From: Nitrosomonas sp.
GTDB taxonomy: Bacteria > Pseudomonadota > Gammaproteobacteria > Burkholderiales > Nitrosomonadaceae
Assembly: GCF_019752415.1 (NCBI RefSeq)
Contig: NZ_JAIEME010000007.1
Span: 1 to 64,000, forward strand
DNA length: 64,000 nt
Direction of reading: 5' to 3'
The position numbers and the translations under genes were made by a program. The notes under the pieces were generated by a model that searched no databases, was not told the DNA's origin, and saw only the letters and a list, made by a program, of their open reading frames with translations. Of the stretch, positions 4,993 through 31,538 are shown in pieces. Within the stretch, counting starts at the first letter, position 1. Every line of letters starts with the position of its first letter.

Positions 4993-6579
4993 ATGACTGA
5001 CTTAATTCATGATCTGATTTTTCAAGCGGCTGATCGTATACCCGATGCTGAGGCATTATTGTACCGAAATCAAACAATGAGTTATTCCTTTCTGGCCGGA
5101 GAAATAGAAACAAAAGCAAATGGTTTGCGTGCAATAGGCTTAAGCCGCGGTGAGCGCGTCGCTGTTTATCTTGAGAAACGCCTGGAAACAGTTGTGGCAT
5201 TATTTGCTGCCTCTGCGGCAAGTGGTGTATTTGTTCCAGTGAATCCGATATTAAAACCCGAACAGGTGGTTTACATTCTGGTCGATTGTAATGTTCGAGT
5301 ACTAGTCACTTCATTGGAACGCTTGAAATTACTGCAAGCGGTTTTGTTGTCTTGTCATGATTTGCATACAGTCGTTGTGGTAGATGCTCAGGATGAACTT
5401 CCGGTTATTGCCGGACTTCTCGTTATGAGTTGGGAAGCATTGCACGCTGTAAACCGGAATTACACTGCATTCCCCACGATCGATAGTGATATGGCAGCGA
5501 TTCTCTATACTTCAGGTAGCACCGGTAAACCCAAGGGAGTCGTACTTTCACATCGTAACCTGATGGCGGGTGCAAAAAGTGTAACGCAATATTTAGGAAA
5601 TCAACGCGATGACCGGATTCTGACCGTGTTGCCGCTGAGTTTCGATTATGGATTGAGTCAGCTCACTACCGCATTTTATGCCGGTGCGACAAATGTTTTG
5701 ATGAATTATCTGTTGCCACGTGACATTATCCAGATTATCAGAGAACAACAGATCACTGGCCTTGCAGCGGTTCCGCCGCTGTGGATTCAACTGGCTCAGT
5801 TGGATTGGGGGCAAGTGTCTTCATTGCGTTATATCACCAGTTCAGGTGGCGCCATGCCGCGCATGGCATTGGAACGATTACGTAAAGCTTTGCCGGTTAC
5901 GCAAATATTCTTGATGTATGGCTTTACTGAAGCCTTCCGCTCAACTTGTCTGGCGCCGGAGGAGCTGGATCGGCGTCCAAATTCTATCGGAAAAGCAATA
6001 CCAAATGTTGAAGTACTGGTGTTGCGCGAGGATGGCTCACACTGTGTGCCGGGTGAACCTGGAGAATTGGTGCATCGGGGTGTCTTGGTCGCGATGGGCT
6101 ATTGGAATGATATGGAAAAAACAGCGATGTGTTTTAAACCGGTTAAACCGCGTCAGTCTGGCCTACCGCTTGCGGAAATTGCCGCTTGGTCGGGTGATAC
6201 CGTGCAGATGGATGAGGAAGGATTTCTTTATTTCATTGAGCGTCGCGATGCGATGATTAAAACTTCGGGTTACCGGGTCAGCCCGACGGAAGTGGAGGAA
6301 GTCATCTGCGCTACAGAATGTGTCGCAGAAGCCATTGCCATCGGTGTTCCACATCCAGTGCTGGGGCAGGCGATTGTGGTGATTGTGACAGCACGGAAAG
6401 CTATTCCGTTGAATACAGATAATTTGTTGGCGGCGTGCAAGCTGCATTTGCCCGCTTATATGCAGCCGAAGCATATTGAAGTGCGTGAAGGGAATTTGCC
6501 GCGTAATCCGAACGGTAAGATAGACCGCAAATTCCTTTTCTACGAAGTGCAGCATTTATTTATGGGAGACGCGCAATGA
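4993..6579 (+). CDS. Acyl-CoA ligase (AMP-forming), exosortase A system-associated
   Basis: The 528-residue adenylate-forming enzyme should activate a carboxylic acid as acyl-AMP and transfer it to CoA or a carrier. The phosphate-binding loop YTSGSTGKPKG is at 172-182. The hinge region with SGDTV and RRDAMIKTSGYRVSP comes near 405-430, and the catalytic Lys is in NPNGKIDRK near 509. Overall composition and the next gene match the family found with exosortase A exopolysaccharide loci. The stop codon overlaps the start of the PLP decarboxylase (ATGA at 6576-6579), so the pair is translationally coupled. Substrate is unknown. Motifs look intact. Confidence 0.88.
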   Translation: MTDLIHDLIFQAADRIPDAEALLYRNQTMSYSFLAGEIETKANGLRAIGLSRGERVAVYLEKRLETVVALFAASAASGVFVPVNPILKPEQVVYILVDCNVRVLVTSLERLKLLQAVLLSCHDLHTVVVVDAQDELPVIAGLLVMSWEALHAVNRNYTAFPTIDSDMAAILYTSGSTGKPKGVVLSHRNLMAGAKSVTQYLGNQRDDRILTVLPLSFDYGLSQLTTAFYAGATNVLMNYLLPRDIIQIIREQQITGLAAVPPLWIQLAQLDWGQVSSLRYITSSGGAMPRMALERLRKALPVTQIFLMYGFTEAFRSTCLAPEELDRRPNSIGKAIPNVEVLVLREDGSHCVPGEPGELVHRGVLVAMGYWNDMEKTAMCFKPVKPRQSGLPLAEIAAWSGDTVQMDEEGFLYFIERRDAMIKTSGYRVSPTEVEEVICATECVAEAIAIGVPHPVLGQAIVVIVTARKAIPLNTDNLLAACKLHLPAYMQPKHIEVREGNLPRNPNGKIDRKFLFYEVQHLFMGDAQ

Positions 6580-7811
6580 ACAACTCACCTCCGGAGCATG
6601 CGCCGCTTGTGCAGTTTCCTGTGTTGGATGACTGTCTGCAAATAGGCGGTATTGCACTGACTCGGTTGGTGCAACGTGTTGGGTCAACTCCGTTTTATGC
6701 GTATGACCGGCAAAAAATAACAGAGCGGATTGTCTTGTTGCGTCAGCATTTACCAGAAGAAATTTTGCTGCATTACGCGATGAAGGCGAATCCTATGCCT
6801 GCAGTGGTACAACATTTAGCGGGATTGGTTGATGGAATGGACGTCGCTTCCGCTGGCGAAATGAGAATGGCATTGGATACAACGCTATCGCCTGAGCAAA
6901 TCAGCTTCGCTGGACCGGGAAAAAAAGAGCATGAACTGCGCAGCGCTATTGCTGCCGGTGTCGTTCTCAATCTGGAATCCGAGCAGGAAATGGAATTGGT
7001 CGCGCAATTGGGTCAATATTTAAGCATTATTCCAAATGTGGCCATTCGAGTAAATCCGGATTTTGAGCTCAAATCTTCCGGAATGAAAATGAGTGGTGGA
7101 TCCAAACCATTTGGCGTAGATGCTGAACGTGTGCCTGATATGCTGATCCGGTTAGGTATGCATCGATTAAATTTTGTTGGCTTTCATATTTTCAGTGGCT
7201 CACAGAATTTGAATGCAACAGCGATTCAGGAAATGCATGCAAAAACTTTTCAATTGGGTATTCTGCTTGCAGAGCATGCACCATCACCCGTGCGATTGTT
7301 CAATATTGGCGGTGGTTTTGGTGTTCCTTATTTTCCCGGTGATCAGACATTGAATATTGCTGCCATTGGTGAAAATTTACAGCGCCTGATGCCCCAAGTA
7401 AAACGGCAATTGCCTGATGCTCGGATCGTGATCGAACTAGGCCGATACATGGTGGCAGAAGCGGGGGTTTATGTCTGCCGGGTTTTGGAACGGAAGGTAT
7501 CGCGAGGACAAGTTTTTCTAGTGACTGATGGAGGATTACATCATCATTTGGCGGCTTCCGGTAATTTTGGTCAAGTAATCCGCAAGAATTATCCAGTCGC
7601 AATCGGAAATAAGGTTCAGGGCGCTGAAAAGGAGGTTGTTTCGGTTGTGGGGCCGCTTTGCACGCCCTTAGATCTGTTGGCCGATCAAATGCTAATGGCA
7701 AAAGCATCGGTTGGTGATTTGGTAGTAATATTGCAGTCGGGCGCCTATGGTCTGTCTGCCAGTCCGACAGCATTTCTTAGTCATCCTATACCGATCGAAG
7801 TGCTGGTTTAA
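6576..7811 (+). CDS. PLP-dependent decarboxylase, exosortase A system-associated
   Basis: The 411-residue protein belongs to the fold III PLP family of diaminopimelate and ornithine decarboxylases. The PLP lysine is Lys70 in HYAMKANP. Glycine-rich phosphate-binding motifs (FNIGGGFGVPY) and the C-terminal barrel segment ending SGAYGLSASPTAFLSH follow. It overlaps the upstream acyl-CoA ligase by 4 bases. The two are the accessory pair normally seen in exosortase A loci, perhaps making and loading an unusual amine or amino acid building block; that role is inference. It differs clearly from the true lysA at 58 kb. Confidence 0.88.
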   Translation: MNNSPPEHAPLVQFPVLDDCLQIGGIALTRLVQRVGSTPFYAYDRQKITERIVLLRQHLPEEILLHYAMKANPMPAVVQHLAGLVDGMDVASAGEMRMALDTTLSPEQISFAGPGKKEHELRSAIAAGVVLNLESEQEMELVAQLGQYLSIIPNVAIRVNPDFELKSSGMKMSGGSKPFGVDAERVPDMLIRLGMHRLNFVGFHIFSGSQNLNATAIQEMHAKTFQLGILLAEHAPSPVRLFNIGGGFGVPYFPGDQTLNIAAIGENLQRLMPQVKRQLPDARIVIELGRYMVAEAGVYVCRVLERKVSRGQVFLVTDGGLHHHLAASGNFGQVIRKNYPVAIGNKVQGAEKEVVSVVGPLCTPLDLLADQMLMAKASVGDLVVILQSGAYGLSASPTAFLSHPIPIEVLV

Positions 7812-8257
7812 CTTCGAATCACTCACGAGGCGGATTGTTTTATTCGCTTTAGCGCAAAATTAAATCATGCCGTTAAATACATCGAGATTCCACGTATTGC
7901 AACGATATGTTGTTTATTGTGCACAGGCTTACATCTTTGTGGCAATTCTTCTGCTAAATAATAAAGATTTATTGAATATTCACTTTAAATATACTTAAAT
8001 GATTGCTGCAATTAGCATATATTACTTATTGAATGAGAAAGTATTTGCTTTATGCGATTGAAGATAGAAAATGCACTGTAGTTCCCTCGTTTATTCGAAT
8101 ATGACATTGTGCAAATACGGTTTACTATTTTTACTCATTGCCTAGACTAGACAAATTTACTACTACTACTAATTCTTAGTTGAATGATTAAGATTTAAGC
8201 TCAATAATCTTTGAATGTGGGTATAGCCGACCACTTATAACTCAACTGGGTAACTTT
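7812..8257. other. AT-rich intergenic region upstream of the acyltransferase unit
   Basis: This 446-base stretch carries no convincing ORF. It is markedly AT-rich and includes a short TAC trinucleotide run at about 8158-8171. It presumably holds the promoter of the four-gene unit that starts at 8258, but I cannot assign a specific -10/-35 pair with confidence. Confidence 0.5.
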
Positions 8258-9007
8258 ATGAGTGATATGTATAATAACTTTCAGAAGTATTTTGAAATTG
8301 TAGAAGCTAATACAAATGAACTGCTTGAGATTGTTTATCGAATCCGTTATCAGGTATTTTGTGTAGAGCACGACTTTCTTGACGCTTCACTTTACCCAGA
8401 CAAACTGGAAAAAGACAATTACGATAATCATTCTTCTCATGTTCTTTTACGATTCCGCTCATCTGGAGATTTTATTGGCGCAGTCCGTTTAATCTTATTC
8501 GACCCGTTGCAACCTGAAAAATTATTTCCAGTCGAATTATATACGCAACTTGATCCAACGCTTTGTAATATCAAAGCCTTGCCCCGTCAGCATATTGCTG
8601 AGATCTCACGCTCTGTTGTTGTGAAACAGTTTGATCGGCGTAGAGGAGAGCGTCGTGAACCTAGAGCAGAAATAACCAATGAAAGTGTTGCCGAAAGAGA
8701 CCGGCGAGCTTCGGATAGACGTTCTACTCCACACTTAAGTTTATTGCTAATGGCTGCTGTCATGCGTATGTCAGTCAAACATAATATTAGATATTGGATA
8801 TCCGCTAAGGATCCTGCTCTTAATAGGTTGCTTGGATATAACGGCTTGAGTTTTAATCCAATTGGCCCACCTGTAAATTATCATGGTATGCGTAGGCCTT
8901 ATTATGCAAATATAGATGATGTATTGACTAGAATGTATAAAGAGCATCATGATGCTTGGGAGGTCCTAACCGATTGCGGTAAATATAGCCCCACTCATAT
9001 TAACTAG
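8258..9007 (+). CDS. PEP-CTERM/exosortase system-associated acyltransferase
   Basis: The 249-residue protein resembles the GNAT-like N-acyl amino acid / autoinducer synthase fold. Hallmarks are RIRYQVFCVEHDF near 29-41, VLLRFRSSGDFIGAVRL near 61-77 and AEISRSVV near 114-121. A charged Arg-rich insertion lies around 125-150 before the second half of the domain. This combination marks the exosortase-associated acyltransferase family, thought to transfer an acyl chain from acyl-ACP or acyl-CoA to an amino compound; the actual product is unknown. It is the first gene of a compact unit with a PstS-like protein, a porin and a GGDEF/EAL protein. Confidence 0.82.
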   Translation: MSDMYNNFQKYFEIVEANTNELLEIVYRIRYQVFCVEHDFLDASLYPDKLEKDNYDNHSSHVLLRFRSSGDFIGAVRLILFDPLQPEKLFPVELYTQLDPTLCNIKALPRQHIAEISRSVVVKQFDRRRGERREPRAEITNESVAERDRRASDRRSTPHLSLLLMAAVMRMSVKHNIRYWISAKDPALNRLLGYNGLSFNPIGPPVNYHGMRRPYYANIDDVLTRMYKEHHDAWEVLTDCGKYSPTHIN

Positions 9008-9037
9008 TGGAATTGTATTGAATCAGGAATCCAGTTC

Positions 9038-9523
9038 TTGAGTTTATTTCATTTCTCTATACGAATAAAATCTTCAAGGCTTTGTTTGTTAAATATTAAA
9101 GTCTACTTTTGTTTCGCTCTAGCAATATGTCTTTTAGGCATAAAGGCTGAGGTCAGGGCAAATGATCGCTATGAAATTGTGATTAATACAGGGGTCAGCG
9201 AGAAAGCACTCTCAGTCAACTCGTTGCGCTCTATATTTAGCATGCATTTGAAGACTTGGTCTGACGGTACCAAGATTAGAGTCTTTGTATTTTCCGATGA
9301 TGATCAACTGCATCAAAATTTTTCTAAGGAAAAATTAAACGTATTTCCTTACCAATTAAGATCCACATGGGATCGGTTAGTCTATTCAGGAACTGGCCAA
9401 GCACCCATCAAAGTAAACTCAACTGAAGAAATGCTTACTAAAGTAGCTACTACACCTGGTGCAATAGGGTATTTATGGAGAGCGGATATTAATGAAAAAG
9501 TTAACGTGCTCGAGATTAAGTAG
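9038..9523 (+). CDS. PstS-like periplasmic phosphate-binding domain protein
   Basis: The 161-residue exported protein has an N-terminal hydrophobic segment (about 24-40) followed by one lobe typical of phosphate ABC-transporter binding proteins: IVINTGVSEKALSVNSLRSIFSMHLKTW and a C-terminal GAIGYLW. It is much shorter than PstS (about 330 residues), so it probably does not work as a normal transport receptor. The start used is a TTG with AGGAA about 9 bases upstream; no better start exists before the signal-like segment. No permease or ATPase is nearby. The 3' end overlaps the porin gene by 32 bases. A sensory or porin-accessory role is inference. Confidence 0.7.
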   Translation: MSLFHFSIRIKSSRLCLLNIKVYFCFALAICLLGIKAEVRANDRYEIVINTGVSEKALSVNSLRSIFSMHLKTWSDGTKIRVFVFSDDDQLHQNFSKEKLNVFPYQLRSTWDRLVYSGTGQAPIKVNSTEEMLTKVATTPGAIGYLWRADINEKVNVLEIK

Positions 9524-10925
9524 CCAATTTTTAGGTGCTTTCCCGGGGATAGCGAGACGATGGGTCTTGTTATTTTGTGTCAGCTGTTTTTCGGCGTATG
9601 CGCAAGAATCCGTTCAAGTGCAAAAGCAAATTGAATCTATAAAATCACCCGTTAAATGGCTGCAAACATCGGAGTTACCTACAGAAGCAACTGAATCAGC
9701 TAGCACGAAGGAAAAGCCCGGATTGGTCAGTACGGCGGTAAATTGGTTTCGAAGAACAGATCTTCCCGCCGATCTGCAGATCCATGGATTCGCCAGCCAG
9801 GCTTATATTACGACTTCAGATAACGATGTTTTTGGAAATAGTGATAACGGTGGAAGCTTTGGACTCACAGAATCAGGGCTTAATGCTTCCGTGCGGCCAT
9901 TGCCGAGAGTATTGCTATCCGCGCAAGTGTTGTCACGCAGAGCAGGCGAGGGCAACACGGGCATGCCACGTCTTGACTTTGGATTTTTGGATTATCGAAT
10001 ATACTCGCATGAGGCCAATCAGTTTGGTATACGCGTTGGCAGATTGAAAAATCCATTCGGTTTTTATAACGACACGCGTGATGTACCGTTTACGCGTCCT
10101 AGCATCATGTTGCCGCAATCGATTTATTTTGATAGGGTACGTAATATAAGTCTTTCAGGAGATTCTGTGCAATTGTACGGCGAAGCAGCTGTTTCCAATT
10201 GGGGTACAGTTTCGACTCAATTTGGTGTATTTCTACCCATAGTGAGTGACAAGGATACGGAACTTGCATTGATTGGAGCGCTGCAACCGGGTCATCTACA
10301 GAGAGATGTGTCGTATATTGGTCGAGGAATTTTTGAAACGAATGACAAACGACTTCGCCTGGGCGTCAGTGGAATATGGTTAAATACATCCTATGATCCT
10401 AGTAATAGGTTGGGTGACTTAATTGGCCCCGGTACATTATTACAAGCCGGTGCATTGCAGTTCTCGCCGGTCTACTTCTCAGCCCAATATAACGCAGAGC
10501 GCTGGACACTGACTTCTGAATATGCAATTCGTCACTTTAAGTATAATAATAATTTTAACGTTAAGCCGCTGGATGGTCTTGATTTCTTTGGTGAAAGTTA
10601 TTACTTTCAAGGTGAATACCGCTTTACCCCGAAATGGGTTGGTCTTCTACGGTATGACGCTCTCTTTACTGATAGATCGGATCGGGACGGAAGTCATTGG
10701 GCTGCATTGAATCCGACTGCGCGCAATGGTTTAGAGCATTCTCGGTTTGCTAAGGATATCACTGTGGGGTTGCGTTGGAATGCTACGCCGCAATTTATGC
10801 TCCGTGCTGAATACCATTATGTCAATGGTACGGGTTGGCTCTCGAGATTAGACAATCCAACCGCTGAAGGTCCACTTAGTCAGCACTGGGATCTTTACGC
10901 GATCCAGGCTTCCTATCGTTTCTAA
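9492..10925 (+). CDS. Outer-membrane beta-barrel porin
   Basis: The 477-residue protein has an N-terminal signal peptide (positively charged start, hydrophobic VLLFCVSCFSAYA near 25-37) and a mature chain rich in alternating aromatic/polar strands. It ends in the C-terminal Phe (IQASYRF) that outer-membrane insertion requires. The first barrel strands begin near 'IHGFASQAYITTSDND'. The pattern resembles phosphate-selective or DcaP-like porins, but substrate cannot be told. A putative periplasmic helix-rich stretch (about 38-90) precedes the barrel. The start lies inside the preceding PstS-like gene (32-base overlap in another frame), which supports co-translation. Confidence 0.78.
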   Translation: MKKLTCSRLSSQFLGAFPGIARRWVLLFCVSCFSAYAQESVQVQKQIESIKSPVKWLQTSELPTEATESASTKEKPGLVSTAVNWFRRTDLPADLQIHGFASQAYITTSDNDVFGNSDNGGSFGLTESGLNASVRPLPRVLLSAQVLSRRAGEGNTGMPRLDFGFLDYRIYSHEANQFGIRVGRLKNPFGFYNDTRDVPFTRPSIMLPQSIYFDRVRNISLSGDSVQLYGEAAVSNWGTVSTQFGVFLPIVSDKDTELALIGALQPGHLQRDVSYIGRGIFETNDKRLRLGVSGIWLNTSYDPSNRLGDLIGPGTLLQAGALQFSPVYFSAQYNAERWTLTSEYAIRHFKYNNNFNVKPLDGLDFFGESYYFQGEYRFTPKWVGLLRYDALFTDRSDRDGSHWAALNPTARNGLEHSRFAKDITVGLRWNATPQFMLRAEYHYVNGTGWLSRLDNPTAEGPLSQHWDLYAIQASYRF

Positions 10926-10937
10926 GCAGAAATTCTG

Positions 10938-13853
10938 ATGGAAAATAATTCAGAGAATCAATTAGAAGAAGCACAGTTTACTCCTAATATTCAGGGGCGA
11001 AGGTACCGCAGCATGAGATGGAAGATCTCTCTGGGGAGCAGTTTAATACTGTTGGCTGTCGTGATGATGTTCTGCTTTATAAGTTATTTGGGTTTAATGG
11101 CCAATTTCGACAATCAGCGGGGTGTCGAATATAGACGGTATTCTCGAGAAATCAATGGCTTGATCAAGAATACTTCGCAGAATTTATATCAGTTGGCTGA
11201 AATGATTCCGTTTTTAGACGGGATGAAAAATGTTTTACTCAAAAGTGATGGCGAGGGTATTAGCAGAGCTTTTGATCAACACTGGGCATTGCTGCAATTT
11301 CATAATGGTGTTGAGTTTGTTCGTTTTTATACTATTGAGAATCAACTGAATGCAAGCTGGGATAGTTTGGATACGAATATTGATGGCAATAGCGAACTGG
11401 CGACCTGGGTAAGCCGAGTCAATCAGTCTGAACGGCCGATTAATCCGCTGCTTTGCAGGGAAAGCTGTATGCAGTATATCGTTGCACCGCTGTTAGTCGA
11501 AGGAAAAAAAGCGGGAGTAGTGGTGATGGGAATTTCTTTAGCCGATGTATTTCTGGCCTTCAAACGGATAGCGGGTGCTGATATTGGTTTGTTAATTAAA
11601 GAACAGGATAATCTACTACTTCAAAATGATCCCGATTCATTGCATTGGAATATTCATATCTCCGCGCTTACCAACAAAGAAAGAAATCTGGAAATTCTCA
11701 ATAAGGCTGCCCAGTTTTATCCGGATATATCGTCACTCAATGACGGTATCCAGATCCGCTGGAATGATCAGTATCAACAACTAAAATTATTCTCCCTTAA
11801 TTCATATGAGCCCGGCAAGGCCCATTTGGTTGTCATTACCGATGTGACGGCTGCAGTGAGTAACATCCATGACTCCATTTGGAAAATTGCATTAATCGGT
11901 TTGCTTGGTCTTGTCTTTTCTGAGATTTTATTATTCCTGATTTTTACACGGCTACTTGCAAAACTAAAAGATGTTGCTTTCGTGCTCCCGCTTCTTGCCA
12001 GCGGTCAATTTGAGAAATTTCGCCTGTCACTGACTTCAACAGATCGCGCGCCGCGTTTCAGAGACGAAGTAGACACATTGTCTGAAGCCGCCGTATCCTT
12101 ATCACTCCAGCTGGAAAAACTCGAGCAGGAAGTATCGACCCGGACAACGATGCTGATTGAGCAGAAAAATGCTCTCAGTAAAGAAAGAGATTTTGTGGGG
12201 AATTTGCTAGATACGGCACAAGCCATAGTTCTGACACAGAATTCTGAAGGCGGAATCATTTCATTAAATGCGTATGGAGAGATGTTGACTCGCTATACAG
12301 AAAGTGAATTGCTGGGTAAATCTTTTCTAAATATTTTGATTCCGGAGTATGAATCACAAGATCTGCTTTCCCGCTTTAAAGAGATACAAGCCGGGCAAAG
12401 AATGCAATTACGCCATGAGGCTATTACCCACTGCAAAGATGGAACAACGCGCCATGTAGCTTGGCTACACTCACATCTGTCATGGCAATCTGCAGATGAT
12501 CCGTCGATTTTGTCGGTGGGACTGGATGTTACCGAATATAAGCGAGTTGAGGGTCATCTGGCTTGGCTAGCCGATCATGATCCTTTGACAAACATGTTTA
12601 ACCGGCGTCGCTTTAGTGACGAACTGGAGCAAGTGTTAAGCCGTGCAGAACGCTATCAGCATCCAGGTGCCTTACTATTCTTTGATCTGGATCGATTTAA
12701 ATATATTAATGACACCAGCGGGCATCAGGCTGGTGATTCGTTGCTTAAAATGGTTGCTGGTATGTTGGCTCAGACCATTCGAACAGATGATATAACAGGC
12801 CGTTTGGGGGGAGACGAATTTGCTATTATCTTGCCGGAAATTAATGCCAGTGGGGCAATAGAAGTTGCCAAAAAAGTACTGGATCAATTGAGCTTGGCCC
12901 AATTAACCATTAGTAATCGTACCCATAAAATTTCAGCCAGTATCGGTATTGCATTATTTCCTGAACACGGTGCTAATATTCATGACTTGCTGGCTGCTGC
13001 AGATCTTGCCATGTATCAGGCAAAGGCGATGGGACGGAATGCCTGGTACCTATTTTCTGATAAAGACCGTAGCCGTGAACGGATGCACACATTAGTTTAC
13101 TGGAAGGAAAAAATTGAGTATTCCCATTTGCATGATAATTTCGTTCTTTACTTGCAACCTATCATGCATGTTAAATCGAAACAAATCTCTCACTATGAGG
13201 TATTGTTGCGCATGCAGGAAAAGGATGGCTCAGTACTGTCTCCTGCCGACTTTATTCCTGCCGCAGAGCATACTGGGCTAATTCACGCGATTGATCACAT
13301 GGTATTACGGAAAGCCATTGCGCAGGTTGCTAAAATATATCAAGCTGGATTCAAGGTTAGCTTTTCAATCAATTTATCCGCTCACGCCTTTAATGATCCC
13401 GAACTATTGCCAATCTTGAAACAAGAATTGTTAACGCAAGACATGGACCCGGCATGTGTCATGTTTGAAATTACGGAAACTGCAGCTTTAGAAGATTTGC
13501 CCGGTGCACGTGCGCTGATGATAGAAATTAGAGAATTGGGTTGTGGTTTTGTACTGGATGATTTCGGTGTTGGTTTTTCTTCTTTTTATTATTTAAGGGA
13601 ATTGCCGGTTGACGTGGTTAAAATTGATGGTTCGTTTATCCGCAATTTATCTGAAAGCAGTGATGATCTGATTTTGGTCAACGCCCTATGCAGCGTAGCC
13701 AGAGGATTTGGTAAGAAAATTACAGCAGAATTTGTCGAGAGTGCGGAAATACTTGCTCTGATAGAAAAAATGGATATTGATTATGCACAAGGATATTACG
13801 TTGGCAAGCCTGCACCAGCGGCTACGTTTTTCATGAAATCAGATTCTGAATAA
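10938..13853 (+). CDS. Membrane-bound PAS-GGDEF-EAL cyclic-di-GMP enzyme
   Basis: The 971-residue protein has, in order, a membrane helix (about 31-54), an extracytoplasmic sensor domain (about 55-310), a second helix (about 315-338), a linker with coiled coil (about 385-415), PAS (about 418-535), GGDEF (about 545-705) and EAL (about 715-960). The cyclase motif GGDEF (624-628) is intact and preceded by an RTDD inhibitory site (615-618). The EAL motif reads EVL (from 754). Other phosphodiesterase residues (NLSA, EITE, DDFG at 874-877, KIDG, the distal Glu and Gln) are present, so both activities are possible. It starts 12 bases after the porin and may report envelope or phosphate status to c-di-GMP; that is inference. 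Confidence 0.9.
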   Translation: MENNSENQLEEAQFTPNIQGRRYRSMRWKISLGSSLILLAVVMMFCFISYLGLMANFDNQRGVEYRRYSREINGLIKNTSQNLYQLAEMIPFLDGMKNVLLKSDGEGISRAFDQHWALLQFHNGVEFVRFYTIENQLNASWDSLDTNIDGNSELATWVSRVNQSERPINPLLCRESCMQYIVAPLLVEGKKAGVVVMGISLADVFLAFKRIAGADIGLLIKEQDNLLLQNDPDSLHWNIHISALTNKERNLEILNKAAQFYPDISSLNDGIQIRWNDQYQQLKLFSLNSYEPGKAHLVVITDVTAAVSNIHDSIWKIALIGLLGLVFSEILLFLIFTRLLAKLKDVAFVLPLLASGQFEKFRLSLTSTDRAPRFRDEVDTLSEAAVSLSLQLEKLEQEVSTRTTMLIEQKNALSKERDFVGNLLDTAQAIVLTQNSEGGIISLNAYGEMLTRYTESELLGKSFLNILIPEYESQDLLSRFKEIQAGQRMQLRHEAITHCKDGTTRHVAWLHSHLSWQSADDPSILSVGLDVTEYKRVEGHLAWLADHDPLTNMFNRRRFSDELEQVLSRAERYQHPGALLFFDLDRFKYINDTSGHQAGDSLLKMVAGMLAQTIRTDDITGRLGGDEFAIILPEINASGAIEVAKKVLDQLSLAQLTISNRTHKISASIGIALFPEHGANIHDLLAAADLAMYQAKAMGRNAWYLFSDKDRSRERMHTLVYWKEKIEYSHLHDNFVLYLQPIMHVKSKQISHYEVLLRMQEKDGSVLSPADFIPAAEHTGLIHAIDHMVLRKAIAQVAKIYQAGFKVSFSINLSAHAFNDPELLPILKQELLTQDMDPACVMFEITETAALEDLPGARALMIEIRELGCGFVLDDFGVGFSSFYYLRELPVDVVKIDGSFIRNLSESSDDLILVNALCSVARGFGKKITAEFVESAEILALIEKMDIDYAQGYYVGKPAPAATFFMKSDSE

Positions 13854-13903
13854 CGAATATGTGTAATTGCCAGTAGCGTAGTATACGCCGACAGTTTACA
13901 GGT

Positions 13904-15301
13904 TTAAAGCGTGACGACTGACAATTGTTCCGGAATGCGTGCCGTCCAATTGAGTTTCTGTTGAATCGCGGTAACCAAAGCAGAAGAATTGCTGAATTCG
14001 CCATGTACGACAAAAATATTTTCGGGCATTTTCTGGAAGTGTCGCAACCAGTTGATTAAATCTGCCTGATCGGCATGCGCCGAGAGTCCACCGATGGTAT
14101 ATATGGTTGCCTTGACACGAACATCCTCACCAAAGATCCTGACTTTCCGGACGCCGTCTACTAATCGTCTTCCCAAAGTTCCTTCCGCCTGAAACCCGGT
14201 AATCAGTATACTGCACTCGGATCTGTCGAGATTGTATTTGAGATGATGTTTGATACGTCCGGCATCGCACATACCGCTGGCTGAAATAATGATGAGCCCA
14301 TGTTTCATATGATTAAGCTGCATGGATTCTTCAATATCCTGCACGAAATGTATTTGTGGTTTTCTCACATTCTTATTCATCCACTGCAGCGTATCGGAAG
14401 TTTCTTTGTCGAGCAATGCAATATGGTTGAGTGTAATTTCTGTCGCCGCCCGCGCCATCGGTGAATCAACATAAATGTCCATTTCTCCCAGTTTACCTTG
14501 GCGATAAAGATCGATCAGCAGAAACAGCAGATCCTGGGTACGGCCAACAGTGAAAGCGGGTATGATCACATTGCCGCCCTTATGAATCAGTGTATGGTTG
14601 ATCGCATGAACCAATTCATCCAAGGTGTCGGGCATATTCCGATGCAAACGATTGCCATAGGTTGATTCGATCAGCAGAATATCTGCTTGTTGGATGAAAG
14701 TTGGGTCGCGTACAATCGGGTGGCCAGGTTGTCCCAAATCGCCCGAGAATACAATTTTCTTGTAATCCGCATGCTTTTTAACCCAAAGTTCAATGATGGA
14801 TGATCCGAGGATGTGGCCAGCATCGCGGAAACAACAGCGTACAGATGAATGAGGATTAATTTCTGAATCGTAATCCACGCGGATTAATTGCTTGAGAAGC
14901 GCTTCCGCTTGAGTGACGGTATATAGCGGGGCGAGCTCCTGCGCTGATCGGCTGTAATGGCGGGATTTATTGCGCCACTCAATTTCTTTTTCCTGAATAT
15001 GCGCGCTGTCTTTGAGCATAACCTGGAGTAAATCCGCCGTTGCGGCTGTGCAATAAACCGGGCCTCTGAAGCCCCATGCGCTTAACCGCGGTAGTAGGCC
15101 GGAATGGTCGATATGGGCGTGGGTTAGTAAAACAAAATCAATCGTTTTAGGATCGAATTTAAAAGCAGTGCGGTTTTTTCTGTCCGCCTCCCGGCCGCCT
15201 TGAAACATACCGCAATCAACCAGAAATCGTATTGTTCCAGTTTCGATGAGATAACTGGATCCGGTCACTTCACCGGCTGCGCCTAAGAAAGTAAGTTGCA
15301 T
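13904..15301 (-). CDS. MBL-fold beta-CASP RNA-processing nuclease family protein
   Basis: The 465-residue protein has the metallo-beta-lactamase zinc motif HAHIDH at 61-66 and further ligands in RDAGHILGSS and FSGDLGQPGHP. The beta-CASP region contains SASGMCDAGRIKHHL, and a late His lies in FVVHGEF. This is the Ysh1/YpjQ-like RNA-specificity family that cuts RNA with two zinc ions. No KH or other RNA-binding N-terminal domain is present. It ends 50 bases from the convergent GGDEF/EAL gene and lies just downstream of bioA on the same strand. Confidence 0.9.
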   Translation of the reverse strand: MQLTFLGAAGEVTGSSYLIETGTIRFLVDCGMFQGGREADRKNRTAFKFDPKTIDFVLLTHAHIDHSGLLPRLSAWGFRGPVYCTAATADLLQVMLKDSAHIQEKEIEWRNKSRHYSRSAQELAPLYTVTQAEALLKQLIRVDYDSEINPHSSVRCCFRDAGHILGSSIIELWVKKHADYKKIVFSGDLGQPGHPIVRDPTFIQQADILLIESTYGNRLHRNMPDTLDELVHAINHTLIHKGGNVIIPAFTVGRTQDLLFLLIDLYRQGKLGEMDIYVDSPMARAATEITLNHIALLDKETSDTLQWMNKNVRKPQIHFVQDIEESMQLNHMKHGLIIISASGMCDAGRIKHHLKYNLDRSECSILITGFQAEGTLGRRLVDGVRKVRIFGEDVRVKATIYTIGGLSAHADQADLINWLRHFQKMPENIFVVHGEFSNSSALVTAIQQKLNWTARIPEQLSVVTL

Positions 15302-20685: not shown

Positions 20686-21516
20686 TTAAGCTGCAGCCGT
20701 ATTCAACGCTTTATGCTGTTTCTTCATGCGCCAACCGACGAGGCCCAGACCTACTAATAACATTGCGTAGGTTTCTGGTTCAGGTACTGCGGTGACAGTC
20801 AAGTTATACTCGCCACCTGCAGACGCATGATCAGTACCACCAACATACACAGCATACCAGCCCGCTGCCAAATCATTGAATACGAGCGAAGCAGTGTGCG
20901 CACCCACGCTACCACTCACGCCATTTTCGAATGTATTTGTCAGGCTCGTGTCATTTAAACCGGTAACAATGCTCTCACCCCAGCCAGTCGTTCCAGCGGC
21001 GTGCGAGGGACCGGAAACTGCGTAGCCCAGGGTTTCCAGAACATTGCCGCCTTGACCGTTCGCCATCCATAGCGTACCAGCATCGCCCATTGCACCTGTT
21101 GCATTAAATGAATGGGGCGTACCAAACCCTGCTAAACTGAGTTCTCCACCGAAACCAGTAGTTCCACCATCAAATACCGTTCCACCGGTTGCCCAGACAG
21201 TTACGCCAGGAACAAAACCAGAATCTCCGGACACGGTTAGGGTGACATCGACTGAGGAATGATTTTGAAATACGAACCAATCACCCGTATGCGCCCAAGC
21301 GGAATAGCTCAGACCTGGATTGTCGGCATAGCCACTTTTCAGTCCAGAATTGGCGGCGGAAATGCTGCTACCCGCAAGAAGATCGTTACCAGCAGTCCAA
21401 GCTTGGAATCCCACTGCACCAGCTGCATATACACTCGTGCTTACCAGTGTAGTAGCAGAAATAATTGCTGCGGCAACTAACAGGTTTGTTTTCTTTCGAT
21501 ATGAATTTTTTCGCAT
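20686..21516 (-). CDS. PEP-CTERM sorting domain-containing secreted protein
   Basis: The 276-residue protein starts with a signal peptide (after basic residues, LLVAAAIISATTLVSTSVYA). A beta-rich body of about 200 residues with many Gly, Ser, Thr and Asn follows. It ends with the sorting signal VPEPETYAMLLVGLGLVGW plus a basic tail from MKKQHK. Such proteins are recognised at the C-terminus and processed by an exosortase in the inner membrane before export or anchoring in matrix polysaccharide. GGAGA stands 6-7 bases before the ATG. Body function is unknown. A MITE-like element and a cluster of hairpins lie upstream. Confidence 0.92.
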   Translation of the reverse strand: MRKNSYRKKTNLLVAAAIISATTLVSTSVYAAGAVGFQAWTAGNDLLAGSSISAANSGLKSGYADNPGLSYSAWAHTGDWFVFQNHSSVDVTLTVSGDSGFVPGVTVWATGGTVFDGGTTGFGGELSLAGFGTPHSFNATGAMGDAGTLWMANGQGGNVLETLGYAVSGPSHAAGTTGWGESIVTGLNDTSLTNTFENGVSGSVGAHTASLVFNDLAAGWYAVYVGGTDHASAGGEYNLTVTAVPEPETYAMLLVGLGLVGWRMKKQHKALNTAAA

Positions 21517-30962: not shown

Positions 30963-31538
30963 ATGAAAAATAACTTTAAACTGAAATTACTGGCAGCAGC
31001 TGTTTTGATGGCAAGTGGCGTAGCACACGCAGGCAGTGCTTTCCTGAATGGTAGCCCAACAGGAGGTAACGGATCAGAAGCAAATCCATATAACTTTGGT
31101 GTAGTGGGCGCATCTGTAAGCGCACTCTTTGTAAATATTGGTGGTCCTGCAAATGGATTTTTCGAAGAATATGCAAACTTCACTATCCCAACACTTTCAA
31201 GTACTTCCGGATCTTCGAATGCGTACGCATTAAATTTCATGGGTATTAATGTGCTAGATATTCAAAATTTGGTAGTTGAAGTATGGGATAACACGCATCC
31301 AGGGGGCTCAACTTTGTACGCCACATTGGTTGGAGACAATTTAACCCATGCATTTGGTAATTTAGCTGCTGGTCAATATCATCTTGATATTAGCGGTCAG
31401 TTTGGTCCGAACGCTTTTGGCGGGCAATATTCAGTTGCGATGCAAGCATTGCCTGTACCAGAACCAGAGACATACGCGATGCTCCTGGCTGGTCTTGGTT
31501 TAGTTGGTTTCTCGGCGCGTCGTCGCAAAATCGCTTAA
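30963..31538 (+). CDS. PEP-CTERM sorting domain-containing secreted protein
   Basis: The 191-residue protein uses the ATG at 30963, which has GGAG about 8 bases upstream and opens directly onto a signal peptide (LKLLAAAVLMASGVAHAG); a longer frame from 30915 lacks these. The body is a small beta-rich, Gly/Asn-rich domain of about 140 residues. It ends with VPEPETYAMLLAGLGLVGF and the basic tail SARRRKIA, the exosortase recognition signal. The sorting tag nearly repeats that of the protein at 20.7-21.5 kb although the bodies differ. A clear terminator follows. Confidence 0.93.
   Translation: MKNNFKLKLLAAAVLMASGVAHAGSAFLNGSPTGGNGSEANPYNFGVVGASVSALFVNIGGPANGFFEEYANFTIPTLSSTSGSSNAYALNFMGINVLDIQNLVVEVWDNTHPGGSTLYATLVGDNLTHAFGNLAAGQYHLDISGQFGPNAFGGQYSVAMQALPVPEPETYAMLLAGLGLVGFSARRRKIA

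Follow-up and report, generated by a model that had tools for sequence, protein, structure and literature searches.

A four-gene unit of ammonia oxidisers places a TIGR03694 acyltransferase gene beside a putative VpvABC-like c-di-GMP sensory module

The first 64,000 nucleotides of contig NZ_JAIEME010000007.1 of Nitrosomonas sp. (assembly GCF_019752415.1), hereafter the window, contain a run of four genes that encode an acyltransferase of family TIGR03694 (gene 1), a small PstS-like periplasmic binding protein (PBP; gene 2), a porin (gene 3) and a sensor protein with GGDEF and EAL domains (gene 4), the latter two being domains of cyclic di-GMP (c-di-GMP) enzymes. The four open reading frames (ORFs) are present as an earlier, sequence-only reading described them, with the same spacings of 30, −32 and 12 bases (Table 1). 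Gene 2 begins with a TTG codon, and four close relatives (loci L051, L055, L057 and L072) have a methionine at that alignment column. The gap between genes 2 and 3 is negative in 27 of 28 complete units of this kind, as calculated from longest-ORF starts, which can overstate the overlap. Because the spacings are tight and a scan of positions 7700–14000 found no terminator-like site on the forward strand, the four genes are likely carried on one transcript. The neighbouring proteins scanned for families included no transporter ATPase or permease beside gene 2, consistent with the earlier reading.

Table 1. Coordinates of the four-gene unit, its notable parts and the gene pair upstream, in window positions.
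Feature	Position	Strand	Basis
Gene 1, TIGR03694 acyltransferase	8258..9007	+	TIGR03694 exosort_acyl, 260.2 bits (cut-off 111.95)
Gene 2, small secreted protein (VpvB-like), predicted to form a single PstS-type lobe, 161 aa	9038..9523	+	PF12849, fold match
Overlap of genes 2 and 3, 32 bases	9492..9523	+	ORF coordinates
Gene 3, outer-membrane porin (VpvA-like)	9492..10925	+	Sub-threshold PF07396; HH match to porins at porin-PBP loci
Gene 4, membrane-bound dCache_3-PAS-GGDEF-EAL protein	10938..13853	+	Each domain over cut-off
dCache_3 periplasmic sensor, residues 66–306	11133..11855	+	PF14827, 80.4 bits
C173-x3-C177 of the sensor	11454..11468	+	Alignment of sensor fragments
GGDEF domain, residues 545–701	12570..13040	+	Family match over cut-off
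EAL domain, residues 732–958	13131..13811	+	Family match over cut-off
TIGR03098 acyl-CoA ligase (AMP-forming) and TIGR03099 pyridoxal-phosphate decarboxylase, gene pair upstream	4993..7811	+	793 and 623.9 bits, over cut-offs

Gene 1 is a member of TIGR03694 by profile score, which bears out its earlier designation as an acyltransferase and places it in a family associated with N-acyl amino acids. Residues R30, E51, D53, D56, R77, E115, S117 and R118 are invariant in all 26 aligned proteins, and their spacing resembles that of the conserved Arg, Asp, Asp, Arg, Glu and Arg of LuxI. When the gene 1 profile was compared with the PDB, acyl-homoserine lactone (AHL) synthases were matched (best E 7.2e-8); at E ≤ 0.01, six AHL-type synthases matched along with one acetyltransferase, present as two entries, and FeeM was not among the matches. 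Gene 1 thus resembles LuxI-type synthases in conserved charged positions and through distant profile matches but scores under the Pfam cut-off of that family (Autoind_synth PF00765, 21.9 vs 24), and it is also below the gathering score of the FeeM-type N-acyl amino acid synthase (NAS) family PF21926 (25.6 vs 27). The enzyme probably makes a fatty-acid-tagged amino acid. TIGR03694 synthases were reportedly linked to PEP-CTERM/exosortase systems by Craig et al. in 2011, a study cited in PMC4897644 and PMC11072679; gene 1 differs from that picture in being tied to a c-di-GMP sensory module, even where no exosortase is detected.

The gene 2 product matches PF12849 (PBP_like_2; 29 vs 27 bits) only over profile positions 102–187 of 267. 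The best of its AF2 models has a mean pLDDT of 78.5 (the remaining four, 47–50) and superimposes on one part of PstS (1twy_B; VIA Z 13.1, root-mean-square deviation (rmsd) 1.6, 96 residues). As modeled, the protein is a single PstS-like lobe and not a two-lobed binding protein. The gene 3 product has a signal-like N-terminal stretch and a C-terminal Phe, as seen by eye, and falls below the cut-off of PF07396 (Porin_O_P; 17.7 vs 20.9). Both proteins are homologous to their counterparts at other porin-PBP loci: the porin with an HH probability of 99.3 (E 4.1e-20), and the PBP, compared with those of porin-PBP(-GGDEF) loci, with a probability of 99.7 (E 8.1e-27).

In gene 4, the GGDEF motif, R615 and D618 (RxxD), and E754, N812, E844, D874, D875, K895, E931 and Q951 of the EAL domain are invariant in 17 of 17 proteins. 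We take these residues to have catalytic-type roles in the two domains, and since they and the RxxD motif are fully conserved, both activities are plausible. The AF2 model of the sensor (residues 25–354, pLDDT 89.1) is closest to the periplasmic domain of LuxQ (Z 14.2 for 3c38 and 3c30, 13.4–13.6 for other LuxQ structures), followed by WalK (Z 13.0) and the CHASE4 domain of PA2072 (12.8); the matched structures include the LuxP–LuxQ complexes 2hj9 and 1zhh. The sensor also contains a C-x3-C pair (C149/C153 of the aligned fragment) present in all 38 aligned rows, which were selected from about 100 candidates with the most diverged (L185, L186 and L215) excluded. In the model, the pair is located at a junction between the end of one strand and the start of the next. 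It might be a disulfide, a redox site or a metal site, the disulfide being a guess.

Among 125 genomes of the family, TIGR03694 is matched in 113 (in 109 of them above the cut-off) and the gene 3 porin in 107. The complete order synthase-PBP-porin-GGDEF/EAL is found in 27 of the 40 regions fetched around family TIGR03694 genes, the other 13 containing a diverged second TIGR03694 gene without the complete unit; with one further unit (L086), the total is 28. A scan of named genomes, keyed on the PBP, was evaluated for the best 80 of 280 loci, 78 of which contain 81 porins. In ammonia-oxidiser-type loci of this set (including L241, L260 and L264), the synthase lies upstream in order for 52 of 57 porins; three of the remaining five are without an in-order synthase and two are at contig ends. 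No Vibrio locus is among these best 80 of 280. The arrangement is therefore not peculiar to this genome, the case that the sequence-only reading had named as refuting it, and it extends to Nitrospirota, with rearranged forms in further gamma- and betaproteobacteria.

Outside the ammonia oxidisers, the same best 80 loci contain 24 porins, with the synthase in order at five, divergent at two, downstream at two and convergent at one. One of the two downstream cases comes from L269, whose first copy was counted with the synthase of the second. The in-order units are those of Nitrotoga and Nitrospirota. Candidatus Nitrotoga L234 nests within Nitrosomonas, so that transfer and contamination are both possible. 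The Nitrospirota metagenome-assembled genomes (MAGs) have the same gene order, and their porin and PBP form a separate starred clade of the tree; their synthases score 181–198 bits with the Nitrosomonadaceae synthase profile, compared with mostly 340–430 bits for complete ammonia-oxidiser genes. Because of this separate clade and the much lower scores, contamination is an unlikely source of the Nitrospirota units. Among them the whole unit is present in L265 only; in L223, L239 and L269 the contig ends inside the sensor gene. In the Nitrospira MAG L269 (3937–8814), synthase-PBP-porin occurs twice in tandem ahead of one sensor gene. Eight of eight distant synthases checked are over the TIGR03694 cut-off. 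A doubled PBP-porin pair was also seen in L190 and L268.

In a class sample of 369 genomes, the porin profile matches 34 at E ≤ 1e-20. Regions were fetched for 31 of the 32 porin genomes outside the window's own genus and contain 33 porins, of which 30 adjoin a PBP, 26 occur with a gene 4 match and 11 have a synthase nearby. The 11 synthases are in order (4), divergent (4), downstream (2) or alongside the sensor gene (1). At L164, the synthase is in line with the sensor gene, ending 24 bases before it, and PBP-porin are on the opposite strand; at L165 and L173, the synthase begins 31 and 18 bases after the sensor gene. In the latter two, both single-contig genomes, the sensor gene is represented by two ORFs, as a result of breakage, a frameshift or a sequencing error.

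For comparison, 20 regions (19 genomes) were hand-picked from lower-scoring matches to the small PBP. A porin match is present in 15 of them and a synthase in none of the 20, compared with 11 of 32 above (Fisher p 0.0036; the 32 include G222, whose region was not fetched). Their order is mostly porin-PBP, with PBP-porin in L305 and L315, PBP-GGDEF/EAL-porin in L317, and the VpvABC order porin-PBP-GGDEF/EAL in L311, L313 and L316 (for L313, the PBP position comes from the small-PBP search). The sensors of the last three, checked for two of them, are dCache_1-like below cut-off, and the gene 4 sensor had no match to the three (HH probability 0.24, E 0.25, with a shallow profile).

The synthase and the porin also occur together across genomes. 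The class searches for porin, NAS and exosortase were assumed to cover one sample of 369 genomes, as handles and totals agree; NAS is over the cut-off in 47 genomes and exosortase (PF09721, E ≤ 0.001) is found in 127. Of the 34 porin genomes, 22 have NAS, compared with 25 of the 335 others (Fisher p 2e-14, relatedness ignored here and in the next two values). The association holds in exosortase genomes (14/19 vs 20/108; p 4e-6) and in those where no exosortase was found (8/15 vs 5/227; p 3e-8). Of the 22 genomes that have synthase and porin, 13 carry them side by side, including seven of the eight without a detected exosortase. On a tree of 63 rows built from PBP and porin, all five arrangement labels require 11 changes, compared with 27.0 in shuffles, and at least five of the seven changes between NAS and none are forced by starred branches. 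The association of synthase and module has thus changed several times and survived rearrangement; the tree cannot tell gain from loss.

The unit combines features of several known systems. LuxQ works with the periplasmic binding protein LuxP as the autoinducer-2 receptor, and gene 4 is likewise paired with a binding protein, gene 2, while its sensor is nearest LuxQ in fold (rmsd 3.5 over 204 residues). In contrast to LuxPQ, GGDEF-EAL takes the place of a kinase as output and a PstS lobe that of LuxP as partner, and sequence identity is 14%. In NspS–MbaA, a full-size periplasmic binding protein reportedly regulates a GGDEF-EAL protein when a small molecule is present, as could be the case here, whereas the ligand there is a polyamine and the unit contains neither porin nor synthase. 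The closest parallel is VpvABC of Vibrio cholerae, described in PMC12456836 as a three-component module of porin, periplasmic binding protein and membrane cyclase, whose porin VpvA likely imports a signal of still unknown identity; according to the same paper, many Gamma- and Betaproteobacteria have vpvAB but no vpvC, and vpvAB was suggested to be a sensing unit. The unit studied here also has an adjoining porin, PBP and membrane c-di-GMP enzyme, the first two homologous to those of porin-PBP(-GGDEF) loci of the class sample. It differs in order (PBP-porin-sensor vs porin-PBP-sensor), in having GGDEF-EAL in place of a cyclase, in the added synthase, and in a sensor that matches none of the three from porin-PBP-GGDEF-EAL loci. 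VpvABC is thus a characterized relative of a combination that the sequence-only reading did not recognize as a characterized system. No description of a TIGR03694 synthase with a porin-PBP-GGDEF module was found among the titles, listed terms and passages searched in the open-licence literature, most subscription papers being outside that scope.

By analogy with VpvABC, a route from the envelope to c-di-GMP, as proposed earlier, is the natural reading of a porin, a periplasmic protein and a Cache-GGDEF-EAL protein. We are largely confident that genes 2–4 form a sensory module of the VpvABC type with which gene 1 has a functional tie. The operon may then be viewed as a signal-maker plus a trans-envelope receptor. 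The gene 3 porin would pass a small ligand through the outer membrane, as proposed for VpvA, and the half-PstS protein of gene 2 would take up or present it; through the LuxQ-like dCache_3 domain, the complex would alter the GGDEF and EAL activities of gene 4, and c-di-GMP, and hence matrix and PEP-CTERM/exopolysaccharide output, would track the ligand. The likeliest ligand is the gene 1 product or a relative, which would make the unit a diffusible-signal circuit feeding c-di-GMP. That the module reads the synthase product is suggested by the logic of VpvABC and the literature on N-acyl amino acid synthases, and we put this at nearly an even chance. The full proposal, a new diffusible-signal system with a LuxI-like synthase, an N-acyl amino acid or acyl amine, re-entry through a porin, half-PstS uptake, a LuxQ-like Cache sensor and c-di-GMP output, is offered tentatively. 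The conserved order, the adjacency kept through rearrangement, the co-occurrence, the L269 tandem, the LuxQ-like fold and the LuxI-type residues make a signal-maker with a trans-envelope receptor the best reading of the data.

Several observations weigh against this reading. TIGR03694 is below the cut-off or absent in 12 of the 34 class porin genomes, a synthase is missing from the vicinity of 14 of the 24 named porins that are not from ammonia oxidisers, and the two genes were not found adjacent in nine of the 22 genomes with both; the module can therefore work without a synthase of its own. The NAS and none labels fall into clusters on the tree (7 changes vs a shuffled mean of 20.9, with 0 of 500 shuffles as low), so that the Fisher values overstate independence. 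A single-lobe protein lacks the usual binding-protein cleft, LuxQ is ahead of WalK by only 1.2 Z and a common fold proves no function, and in Methylomonas LW13 two unrelated mutants have the same phenotype. An appreciable, if lesser, possibility is that genes 2–4 sense an unrelated envelope or environmental cue and the gene 1 product is a surface-active matrix output made when the operon is on, both serving attachment with the product not acting as ligand. The frequency of synthase-less triads fits this, as do the findings that N-acyl amino acids are biosurfactants (PMC4897644) and that loss of a synthase alters polysaccharide banding (PMC11072679); the L269 tandem and the adjacency in genomes without a detected exosortase do not follow from it alone, though they are not forbidden.

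Gene 1 might instead serve PEP-CTERM/exosortase processing or surface lipid attachment, with the porin and periplasmic protein moving or placing the lipid and c-di-GMP providing no more than the timing. TIGR03694 is named for exosortase systems, exosortase is present in 34 of 47 NAS genomes compared with 93 of 322 without NAS, and this genome has ten PEP-CTERM matches, two of them over the cut-off in the window (20719–20787, reverse strand; 31455–31529, forward strand). Yet eight class genomes have triad and synthase without a PF09721 match, adjacent in seven; completeness falls short for some of them (G410, 85%; G298, 90%), whereas G396 and G488 are single-contig and 100% complete. The Nitrosomonas draft genome itself has no XrtA over the cut-off (TIGR03109, 133.4 vs 208 bits), its only exosortase being of another type (a 303-aa frame on contig C78). 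We consider such a role improbable, and the tie to exosortase A in the sequence-only reading proves loose. That reading also suggested a phosphate signal. The PstS-lobe fold of gene 2 and the sub-threshold Porin_O_P match of gene 3 speak for a phosphate sensor, which is nonetheless very improbable: gene 2 is predicted to have one lobe where PstS has two, other residues face the PstS motif R-x3-S-G-T in two weak alignments (to 4n13 and to the genome's own PstS, hhalign E 0.087), and the genome encodes three longer PBP_like_2 proteins elsewhere. Descent alone can preserve gene order within a family, but that the genes are neutral neighbours is hardly credible, and we reject it: the order is found again in another phylum, at least four arrangements with the synthase occur, and none of the 20 comparison regions has a synthase.

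If correct, the proposal would describe a diffusible-signal system common to ammonia oxidisers, Nitrospirota and purple sulfur bacteria, in which a LuxQ-like Cache domain has c-di-GMP as output in place of phosphotransfer, and would explain the purpose of this class of N-acyl amino acids. PMC4897644 states that the physiological function of bacterial long-chain N-acyl amino acids is still unclear and that some of their synthases carry a putative c-di-GMP-binding domain. The unit brings two open questions into one operon, the function of N-acyl amino acids and the ligand of VpvABC-like modules (PMC12456836), which can then be addressed together. Nitrifier biofilms matter for wastewater treatment and the nitrogen cycle.

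The upstream TIGR03098/TIGR03099 pair lies near the unit in many Nitrosomonas regions and is not a constant part of it. Both families are named for exosortase A, yet the genome is without XrtA over the cut-off. Between decarboxylase and synthase, the window has a gap of 446 bases, whereas several Nitrosomonas have an ORF of 612–618 aa there (L044:3822–5678, L049:10975–12813 and L060:9607–11451). The ORF starts with M-S/G-G-x-C-G-W and at that end resembles a glutamine amidotransferase/asparagine synthase. A sigma-54 promoter was rejected as a conserved feature: TGGCA-N7-TGCW occurs at 7940–7955, but just 3 of the 89 upstream regions have such a site (mononucleotide shuffles predict 0.34), at about −318 only in the window, and a looser pattern has 19 window matches with 15.8 expected. 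The 2.96 Mb genome has 33 GGDEF matches, many for its size.

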